IMG/VR virus record: IMGVR_UViG_3300028146_000008
Coordinates: 30,369-94,368 of that record
Length of the DNA stretch: 64,000 nucleotides
Reading direction: 5' to 3' (one strand)
Source of the DNA: a virus
A program made the translations under genes and the position numbers. The notes beneath the pieces are model-generated. The model saw nothing but the letters and a program-made list of their open reading frames with translations. It did not search any database and was not told the origin of the DNA. Positions 1 to 1,620 of the stretch are shown in pieces. Every line of letters starts with the position of its first letter. Position 1 is the stretch's first letter.

Positions 1-104
1 GCGTCTTCTCGCTTAGTCTCTCACGCTGCGATTTCTCGCTTGCGCCTCGTTGCCATTTCAGGGTTCGAGTCAATCAGAGAAGATTTTAGGAACACCGAGT
101 TTTA
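1..104 (-). ncRNA. Group I intron in capsid gene (third element), 5' part only
   Basis: The capsid frame loses its expected C-terminal part here. The last exon bases GGAACAT (111-105) can pair with GTGTTCC (95-89), ending in the U·G pair that marks a group I 5' splice site. TCTTCTC (83-77) and GAGAAGA (10-4) can form P3. Between them lie a Q-like element (AATCGCAG, about 34-27) and an R-like element (GAGACTAA, about 20-13). P7 3' strand, P8, P9 and the 3' splice site are outside the window. Intron identity is inferred from these pairings and their order. Confidence 0.75.
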
Positions 105-798
105 ATGTTCCGCCAGTTACCGTCTTCGATTGCATTGTCACCACGTCCGCCTAGGCGAATCGCTATGACTCCGTCTTTACCGAAGATGTAGGTACGGTAC
201 GCAACCACCGAAGCCGCCGAACCCTGATACGCCGTTGTGAGCGTAACCAAGTTCGACTGGAAGAACGCGACACCAGATGCTGGGAACTCCAGCGTGTCCG
301 CGAGGTCAACCGAGACCAAATCATCCATGCGCTGGAGTCCAGGCACGGTGTGCTTCAGTACGTCGATTGCTGAGTTGTTGCTGGAATCGTTCAAGAGGTC
401 GCCAACGGCGAACGGGTGAATGACGCCTGCGAAAAGTGCTTCCGCTTCGTTGAAGGGCTGCACTGCGCGGCCAGCCAGAGACTGGACCTGAGCGCGAATG
501 TTGGCGAGAGCCAACGAAGTACCACCAGTGATCTTGACCGACACGGAGCTGTCAACGCTGGAAGCGCCGTCAGCAACCGCACGGGTGATCGCGGACAGAG
601 ACTGTCCAAGGCGATACGAAAGTTCGCGACCGACGTTTTCAACAACCGGGTCGATTGCGGTAGCGAGGGAAAGGCTGGAGAAGTTCGCGTAGTCCGCGTA
701 CTCACCTATCGTGGCAGTCGTAGTTCCGACTGACGCGCTGATGCCCGTGGGCACCGTGCCTTCGGACACTTGGGCGGTGTTCGCGCCAAATGTGTTAT
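105..798 (-). CDS. Major capsid protein (N4 gp56-like), internal exon
   Basis: Encodes most of the shell protein that forms the head. The translated exon resembles the N4 gp56-like capsid family: a SEGTVPTG stretch, then IGEYADYANFSSLSLATAID, PVVENVGRELSYRLGQS, and near the end an FGKDGVIAIRLGGRGD segment. The family normally continues for about 50 residues after the DGNWRN motif, but here a stop follows, which agrees with the intron starting at 104. The open frame also extends upstream past the first GTG to a stop at 815-817, so 798 is set by splicing logic, not by a start codon. It joins the 5' exons at 1410-1620. Confidence 0.85.
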
Positions 799-1409
799 TA
801 GTTGTGTTTAGGGTTTAAAGCGAGGCTTCCTGTGTCACCACAGGATCACTCTTACGGTCACCCGTAAGCTCGGACTCTATCTTCTCTTCGGTTTCCCGAA
901 GGTCTTGCGTATTAGTCTCTACGGAGTTATCTTGTCGATTCAGTAGGCGAATTTTATTGGCCAGTTCTTGGCGTTTCTGAGGACTACCATAAGGTAGCCG
1001 CAAAAACTCTAACGCAAGAATGGCTTGTTCTCTTTTCATTAGCAGGTATGGAACAATTGCGAGTAGAAAATTCTCTCGGTTCTTCTTGCCTGCGGGCATC
1101 CACATATACTGGGTACGCCCCGGTTTTCCGCCGTATCCGATTAGGGATCGAACGTAAAACCGCCCCCCGACATTTTTAACCAACCACTTCATCAGGAAGA
1201 GAGATGTATTGTAAATCGCTACTTGGAGTTGAAAGTCTCCTTGCGCTCTTTTGTTAGCGCAAATAGTTCCTTCTCCATCGACTATCCCGGCCAGATACGA
1301 CCATAAATGTTTTTCCATTTTAGATATTTCCTCGGTATTGTCTGATAATGATTGTATCAGAGATCCACCGATATAGCAAGATTTTTAATTCATGCATAAC
1401 TGTAGGTCT
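799..1409 (-). ncRNA. Group I intron (611 nt) with LAGLIDADG gene
   Basis: The exon end ATTCATGT (1417-1410) pairs with GCATGAAT (1395-1388), eight pairs ending in U·G: a classic P1. The bases just 5' of that guide, GTTAT (1400-1396), pair with the downstream exon start ATAAC (798-794): P10. Core helices follow in order: P3 TCTTGCGT/ACGCAAGA (1019-1012 with 910-903), R-like GAGACTAA (919-912), P8 CTTCGG-GAAA-CCGAAG (901-886), S-like AAGATAGAGTCC (883-872), and two GTGA-capped hairpins (868-851, 845-828). Splicing here restores a Met-Tyr-Asn-Thr-Phe-Gly reading. Odd: the last intron base is A, not the usual G. Confidence 0.88.
815..1318 (-). CDS. LAGLIDADG homing endonuclease inside capsid-gene intron
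   Basis: A 167-residue protein with one motif, LAGIVDGEGTI (residues 9-19), so it should act as a homodimer cutting intron-free capsid genes to spread the intron. The rest (VGGRFYVRS, YMWMPAGKK, LAIVPYLLMKREQAI) fits the single-motif family. ATG with GAGGAAA about 9 bases upstream. Its last 65 or so codons also encode the intron core helices P3 to P9, so the RNA structure and the protein tail share the same bases. It is not an intein: it has its own start and stop and no splicing-domain blocks. Confidence 0.9.
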   Translation of the reverse strand: MEKHLWSYLAGIVDGEGTICANKRAQGDFQLQVAIYNTSLFLMKWLVKNVGGRFYVRSLIGYGGKPGRTQYMWMPAGKKNRENFLLAIVPYLLMKREQAILALEFLRLPYGSPQKRQELANKIRLLNRQDNSVETNTQDLRETEEKIESELTGDRKSDPVVTQEASL

Positions 1410-1620
1410 ACATGAATAGTTCCAACTGATTACCGGAATTGAGAGGGAGTTCCCGACGTTCTGCACAACGAACGAAAGGAGTCTGCGCTTTCAAATTCTC
1501 AATAAAACGCTTCTTCTTTCAGTTGGTTTGATCTACGACAAGCGTTGTTTAATCGTAGTAAATTACTCGCGATTGCGGTAAGTTGGAAGTAGTGTTTGAA
1601 GCTGGATTAAATCCGGCCAT
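1410..1620 (-). CDS. Major capsid protein, 5' exons (broken by a 39-nt insert)
   Basis: Start of the capsid gene: ATG at 1620 with AAAGG seven to ten bases upstream. The first 23 codons (1620-1552) read MAGFNPASNTTSNLPQSRV then IYYD. A TAA follows at once. The family-like sequence resumes in the same frame at 1512 with KRFIENLKAQTPFVRCAERR and ends LNSGNQLELFM before the large intron. Removing exactly 1551-1513 gives YYD-KR-FIENLK, which matches the YYKKVFLERLK-type spacing of the family. Without removal of the insert the capsid protein cannot be made from this start. Confidence 0.82.
1513..1551 (-). ncRNA. 39-nt intron-like insert with P1, P10 and terminal G but no core
   Basis: The upstream exon end CTACGAT (1558-1552) pairs with GTCGTAG (1539-1533), seven pairs closing with U·G as in a group I P1. 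The seven bases before that guide, AACGCTT (1546-1540), pair perfectly with the start of the downstream exon AAGCGTT (1512-1506), as a P10 would. The last base of the insert is G. The boundaries given by RNA pairing and by protein homology are identical. There is no room for P3-P9. It could be a core-deleted relic, an intron that uses another intron's core in trans, or an assembly loss. Confidence 0.7.

Follow-up and report, generated by a model that had tools for sequence, protein, structure and literature searches.

Self-splicing group I introns of phages, for example those of Twort, T4 and the Bastillevirinae, combine a P1 helix with a U·G pair, a guide that also serves P10, a terminal G and a P3-P9 core, and each group I intron is assumed to bring its own catalyst. 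Exon skipping between group I introns within a single Twort gene (Landthaler and Shub 1999, as cited in PMC3073962) suggests that the splice sites of neighbouring group I introns can be used together within one transcript. Removal of a foreign intron by a group I ribozyme was found in our searches only in engineered constructs: spliceozymes, in which a group I core excises a short foreign intron (PMC4094466), and trans excision-splicing ribozymes (Bell, Johnson and Testa 2002, as cited in PMC6155759), which by that account remove a short intron that is not their own and are helped by a stronger P10. Here we describe a 39-nucleotide (nt) insert in the major capsid gene of a virus, situated in a 64,000-nt window (the whole stretch of DNA analysed, bases 30369-94368 of the 94,368-base virus record IMGVR_UViG_3300028146_000008), together with its counterparts in related genes. 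These mini-introns resemble the phage introns in P1 with its U·G pair, in the guide with P10 and in the terminal G, but possess no core and measure 32-98 nt in all.

Short introns that depend on others are familiar from the group III introns of Euglena plastids, degenerate group II introns from which catalytic domains have disappeared and which apparently rely on components provided in trans; these belong to the group II lineage, and a literature search found no group I counterpart to them. Natural trans-spliced group I introns of organelles (e.g. PMC3873408, PMC10027690) show that group I splicing can proceed with parts on more than one RNA. In such introns the pieces together form one core for one intron, whereas here one complete core appears to serve two. 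The mini-intron is also not a split intron: it lies within one continuous gene, no half is missing, and the neighbour is full-size with its own P1. In Twort, by the account cited above, each intron has its own core, whereas here the upstream intron is coreless and the mini-exon must be kept. The engineered systems, in turn, are laboratory constructs whose ribozyme carries the guide, whereas in this natural case the substrate carries both P1 strands and the P10 guide. Without a core, the mini-intron is not a group I intron, though it would work like the substrate half of one. The literature searched, outside of which most subscription papers lie, contained no description of coreless group I-type introns.

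The 39-nt insert and its borders

The major capsid gene lies on the minus strand within the first 1.6 kilobases of the window and has three interruptions: the 39-nt insert behind codon 23, a 611-nt intron in codon 58 (after its first base) and a 205-nt intron in codon 289. The features around the insert are the following, in window positions.

1552..1620, minus strand: capsid exon 1, codons 1-23 (MAGFNPASNTTSNLPQSRVIYYD), ATG at 1620; homologous to the uninterrupted genes L003 and L004-L008
1513..1551, minus strand: 39-nt coreless mini-intron; protein and pairing borders agree
1552..1558, minus strand: P1 exon strand CTACGAT, with 1552 as the U of the U·G pair
1533..1539, minus strand: P1 intron strand, i.e. 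the internal guide sequence GTCGTAG
1540..1546, minus strand: P10 guide AACGCTT, directly 5' of the P1 guide
1506..1512, minus strand: P10 exon strand AAGCGTT, start of exon 2
1513..1513, minus strand: terminal G of the mini-intron (omega-G equivalent)
1410..1512, minus strand: mini-exon 2, 103 nt, coding KRFIENLKAQTPFVRCAERRELPLNSGNQLELFM and the first base of Y58

A sequence-only reading of the window had claimed that TAA follows the upstream exon at once, that an insert with perfect P1 and P10 ends in G and has no core, and that protein homology and RNA pairing give identical borders; all of this was borne out. Codons 1-23 end at 1552, directly followed by the TAA, and the insert at 1551-1513 forms a P1 of 7 base pairs (bp) with the U·G pair at the 5' splice site and a P10 that is likewise of 7 bp. 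Borders set by protein homology alone, using uninterrupted relatives such as L003, coincide with the pairing borders to the base: over 324 codons, the window gene and L003 show 222 identical codons, 99 synonymous differences and 3 nonsynonymous differences. The capsid gene is uninterrupted over the corresponding part in relatives whose protein is 94-99% identical, and so is the aligned part of the one further relative in the genome collection. Between the P1 guide and the 3' site there are 20 nt, which is too short for a catalytic core P3-P8 with its P7 guanosine site; an Rfam search gave no match inside the 39-nt insert, and a DNA similarity search of phage records left the insert region unmatched. 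The observed P1 and P10 score, with U·G and terminal G, was never reached in 2000 shuffles of the 39 bases. A free scan of the genome for P1, P10 and G cassettes under more permissive limits (minimum P1 of 7, minimum P10 of 5) found 25 of them, compared to 19-29 in shuffles, which is the chance rate: significance thus comes from the agreement with the protein borders and from recurrence, not from the pairing motif by itself. The 39-nt insert in the capsid gene is confirmed as real.

Mini-introns in related capsid genes

A search for short inserts in related phages, as the sequence-only reading had proposed, revealed 45 distinct coreless mini-introns (32-98 nt, median 45) in this phage and in related phage contigs from many metagenomes. 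Scans with the capsid protein gave a first set of 132 distinct loci, in which, with the window, 22 mini-introns were defined (33-94 nt; P1 of 6-10 bp; P10 of 3-8 bp abutting the guide directly); 2000 shuffles of each reached the observed score in 0-5 trials. A hold-out set of 32 new distinct loci from three further scans provided 24 more of 32-98 nt, all with matching anatomy. Some borders were picked among near-equal options (e.g. L118 with a P10 of 3 bp and L231 with 4 bp). Two near relatives of the window gene, L014 (46 nt) and L018 (42 nt), carry coreless inserts at another site, after GAGAACCT, with borders set by P1, P10 and G and with sequences that differ from the window insert. The U·G pair at the 5' site is present in 45 of 45 distinct mini-introns and the terminal G in all. 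When each is paired with its own strands, 99.6% of P1 cells and 96.9% of P10 cells (first five) are paired, as against 51.7% and 43.9% when the exons of one mini-intron are combined with the guide of another; with 20 distinct 6-mers on the P1 exon side and 17 distinct 5-mers on the P10 exon side among the 45, this excess is a covariation result. These comparative data strongly favour the suggestion, already made from the window alone, of a minimal intron of a new kind.

An in-frame stop is found in 44 of the 45 mini-introns and a length that is not a multiple of three in 28, so that the inserts must be removed or bypassed. Translational bypassing, with the ribosome hopping over the insert as in T4 gene 60, would suit the stop directly after the upstream exon in the window and the in-frame stops elsewhere, but we regard it as extremely improbable: in none of the 45 is the take-off codon the same as the landing triplet, the 28 non-triplet lengths speak against it, and it predicts neither the constant U·G, P10 and terminal G nor an adjoining group I intron. 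Protein-based splicing, in which an endonuclease and a ligase would recognise the P1/P10 hairpin, could draw on the fact that a P1-P10 helix would bring both junctions together; this too is very unlikely, as it leaves the U·G wobble, the terminal G and the obligate downstream group I intron (see below) unexplained.

Between capsid genes sharing a mini-intron, nucleotide identity has fallen to 70-83%, with change that is mostly synonymous (L177/L182: 152 synonymous versus 33 nonsynonymous codons). The mini-bearing capsid genes are under purifying selection, and the mini-introns have hence persisted in working genes, with P1, P10 and the terminal G kept while the remainder decays. This bears on the possibility of a deletion relic or an assembly collapse, where the core would have been lost in the reads, or in a dead genome whose gene is not expressed. 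Full introns at the same sites in relatives, and mini-intron tails that in some cases resemble pieces of full introns, are in its favour, but we hold it to be highly improbable, given 45 distinct mini-introns in many contigs and metagenomes, several of them common to the diverged genes above, and the selective retention of P1, P10 and G. Both variants had been raised in the sequence-only reading: assembly loss is rejected, many independent contigs having the same architecture, while the relic probably holds for the origin by core loss and not for the present state, with its retained pairing elements in a selected gene.

The mini-introns further differ from full introns in their P10, which has a mean length of 6.4 bp compared to 4.0 bp in 52 confident full introns (p = 7e-5), the hold-out mini-introns likewise averaging about 6.4. 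A longer P10 is to be expected if the 3' site has no core of its own to hold it, and engineered trans-acting group I ribozymes gain when P10 is strengthened, the optimum lying near 6 bp (PMC6155759). The mini-introns occupy about a dozen insertion sites and were found in the capsid gene only, the other genes examined carrying few introns. A search of other genes (about 1.8 megabases of flanks and genomes) returned only low-identity, in-frame, stop-free indels or chance matches; for cores outside the capsid gene, the single upstream cassette, in L200, was rejected as a chance match within an intact reading frame. Full group I introns lacking an open reading frame (ORF) and unaccompanied by mini-introns occur in a gene upstream of the capsid gene (L099 310, L200 740 (portal-like), L234 907 and L368 201).

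The downstream neighbour and a proposed shared core

In every testable case the next intron downstream of a mini-intron is a full-size group I intron, and the mini-exon between the two measures 15 to about 220 nt (L018 and L441 were left out, as their contigs end). Genes with several mini-introns have no two of them adjacent and none in last place, but a strict alternation: mini-full three times in L361, twice in L103, L106, L325, L368, L381 and L382, and full-mini-full-mini-full in L357. Shuffling the labels within 35 loci (46 mini-introns) gives a log10 P of about -12.6, a value that is overstated since the loci share ancestry; the rule was first seen in the first set and was upheld in the hold-out set. 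In the window the neighbour is the 611-nt intron:

799..1409, minus strand: 611-nt group I intron with its own P1 (ATTCATGT/GCATGAAT), proposed helper, last base A; weak RF00028 match
851..1065, minus strand: best-matching part of the group I core (P3-P9) in this intron; RF00028 20.2 bits, E 0.04 (3e-4 for one genome)
815..1318, minus strand: 167-amino-acid ORF within this intron with a LAGLIDADG-like motif (LAGIVDGEG); no Pfam match at E<=0.001

Amongst the neighbours, the 203-nt helper of the 33-nt mini-intron of L106 reaches 59.5 bits with RF00028 and exceeds the family cut-off. The ORF-less type of about 200 nt is poorly seen by Rfam, and 20 examples were aligned and tested for a P3/P5/P6/P7/P8/P9 structure: 99.2% of cells are paired (78.0% when shuffled), 22 of 33 pairs have changed on both sides, with covariation in P3, P6, P8 and P9, and the P7 strands are invariant. 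Most full introns have their own P1 and usually a P10 too. The downstream neighbours carry a real P3/P7 pseudoknotted group I core, which in the window's 611-nt intron is weakly indicated.

We consider it quite likely that the mini-intron is a non-autonomous, coreless intron of group I type, a P1/P10 cassette that is spliced by the core of the next full intron downstream. The P1 and guanosine-binding sites of that core would accept the upstream cassette besides the intron's own P1; guanosine triphosphate (GTP) would cut at the U·G of the docked mini-intron, and the freed upstream exon would then attack after the terminal G, which P10 aligns. The same core would excise its own intron afterwards (or before). 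In the window, the 611-nt intron, 103 nt downstream of the 39-nt mini-intron, would be the helper. Polarity and closeness of the two introns favour action in cis, before the helper's own excision.

Splicing by another intron's core had been suggested from the window sequence, and the comparative data strongly favour this part of the suggestion; as to where the core lies, dependence on the neighbour is more likely than splicing in trans from anywhere. Any group I core of the phage, as excised intron RNA or within another gene, might in principle act in this manner. Docking of P1 has no strong dependence on sequence, a point in favour of such action. Engineered group I ribozymes, moreover, remove introns of 64-100 nt in trans (PMC4094466). 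A free core, though, would not need the next place downstream in every testable case, nor a strict alternation, and we judge splicing in trans to be unlikely. Given that constant neighbour, the role of helper almost certainly falls to the full group I intron that comes next downstream on the same transcript. The term parasite, also used in the sequence-only reading, was not sustained, as nothing shows the element to be mobile.

Several points weigh against splicing by the downstream core. Many mini-introns share ancestry, so that independent origins are far fewer than 45, at about a dozen sites, and insertion hot spots could inflate the association with a neighbour. No P9.0-like contact between mini-intron and helper was identified. 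What is observed is anatomy, recurrence, the neighbour rule and selection, from which we infer the splicing, the identity of the helper and the order of events; the evidence that would make the mini-intron a spliceozyme-type substrate, excised by the core of another RNA element, is its obligate neighbour. A further point is that the window's helper combines a low RF00028 score with a last base that is A and not G.

On these data it is likely that group I introns divide the labour in nature, with coreless P1/P10 introns relying on a neighbour's ribozyme. Such an arrangement would parallel, for group I, the passage from self-splicing group II introns to introns spliced by an external machine. 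If true, two introns are excised by a single natural ribozyme core, a mode of splicing without earlier description, and catalysis by a neighbour allows introns to shrink to about 32 nt; this would offer an observable and testable case of self-splicing introns becoming dependent on an external machine, a step that has been proposed for the origin of spliceosomal introns. Intron finders that use core models (e.g. Rfam RF00028) would then miss mini-introns, and the genes bearing them would be called broken.

Origin of the mini-introns and observations on full introns

Full introns occupy the same capsid sites as mini-introns in some relatives: L077 at site 23, and L092 versus L106 at site 31. In both the L077 full intron and the window, TCAAACC stands right after the guide (window ATCAAACCAACTGA, L077 TCAAACCCACTCTGA); the corresponding stretch is TATATTGGTTGA in the L106 mini-intron and TATATCGGTGGA in the L092 full intron. 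As these two mini-introns resemble shrunken full introns at the same sites, core loss next to a second core is the likely origin, to judge from these few cases: the neighbouring core would have made the mini-intron's own core dispensable, which would then have been lost. Near residue 315, a mini-intron of 94-98 nt is nearly identical in L097, L103, L106, L361, L368 and L382, with an 83-nt shortened form in L325 that looks like stepwise shrinkage. AGTC, the motif of the P7 3' strand, occurs in 16 of 44 mini-intron tails (shuffled mean 4.2, maximum 12), e.g. in L177, L178, L114, L216 and L240, where it may be a remnant of a lost core or a contact with the helper. Exchange of a P7 strand via AGTC was considered and rejected: the motif is absent from the remaining tails and so is not required, which fits remnants of lost cores.

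The remainder of the capsid gene in the window comprises the following features.

105..798, minus strand: capsid exon 3, from the end of codon 58 through the second base of codon 289
1..104, minus strand: third intron (205 nt, ORF-less type), of which the first 104 nt lie in the window; it runs on to about 30268 of the record (G000)

The third intron (window 1-104; L020 12300-12452) is of the ORF-less group I type of about 205 nt that RF00028 barely sees. The gene itself we take to belong to the N4gp56-like major capsid family; a Pfam search of the capsid protein gave no match. Among the isolates of the phage collection, the closest is Tunturiibacter phage Tunturi_3 (its protein, annotated as major head protein, is 63% identical), a podovirus of Acidobacteriota (PMC11924767).

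Among 52 confidently bordered full introns, 12 appear to end in A and not in G (L010, L012, L092, L138, L159, L178, L184, L187, L231, L234, L249 and L250), as does the window intron at 799-1409; they lie at several unrelated sites and have the core type related to LAGLIDADG ORFs, and a literature search on introns ending in A returned nothing useful. In L186, near residue 54-58, exon sequence (GGTAATCAATATGAA) is repeated within the tail of the full intron, perhaps from homing or recombination. Other related capsid genes contain up to six introns.
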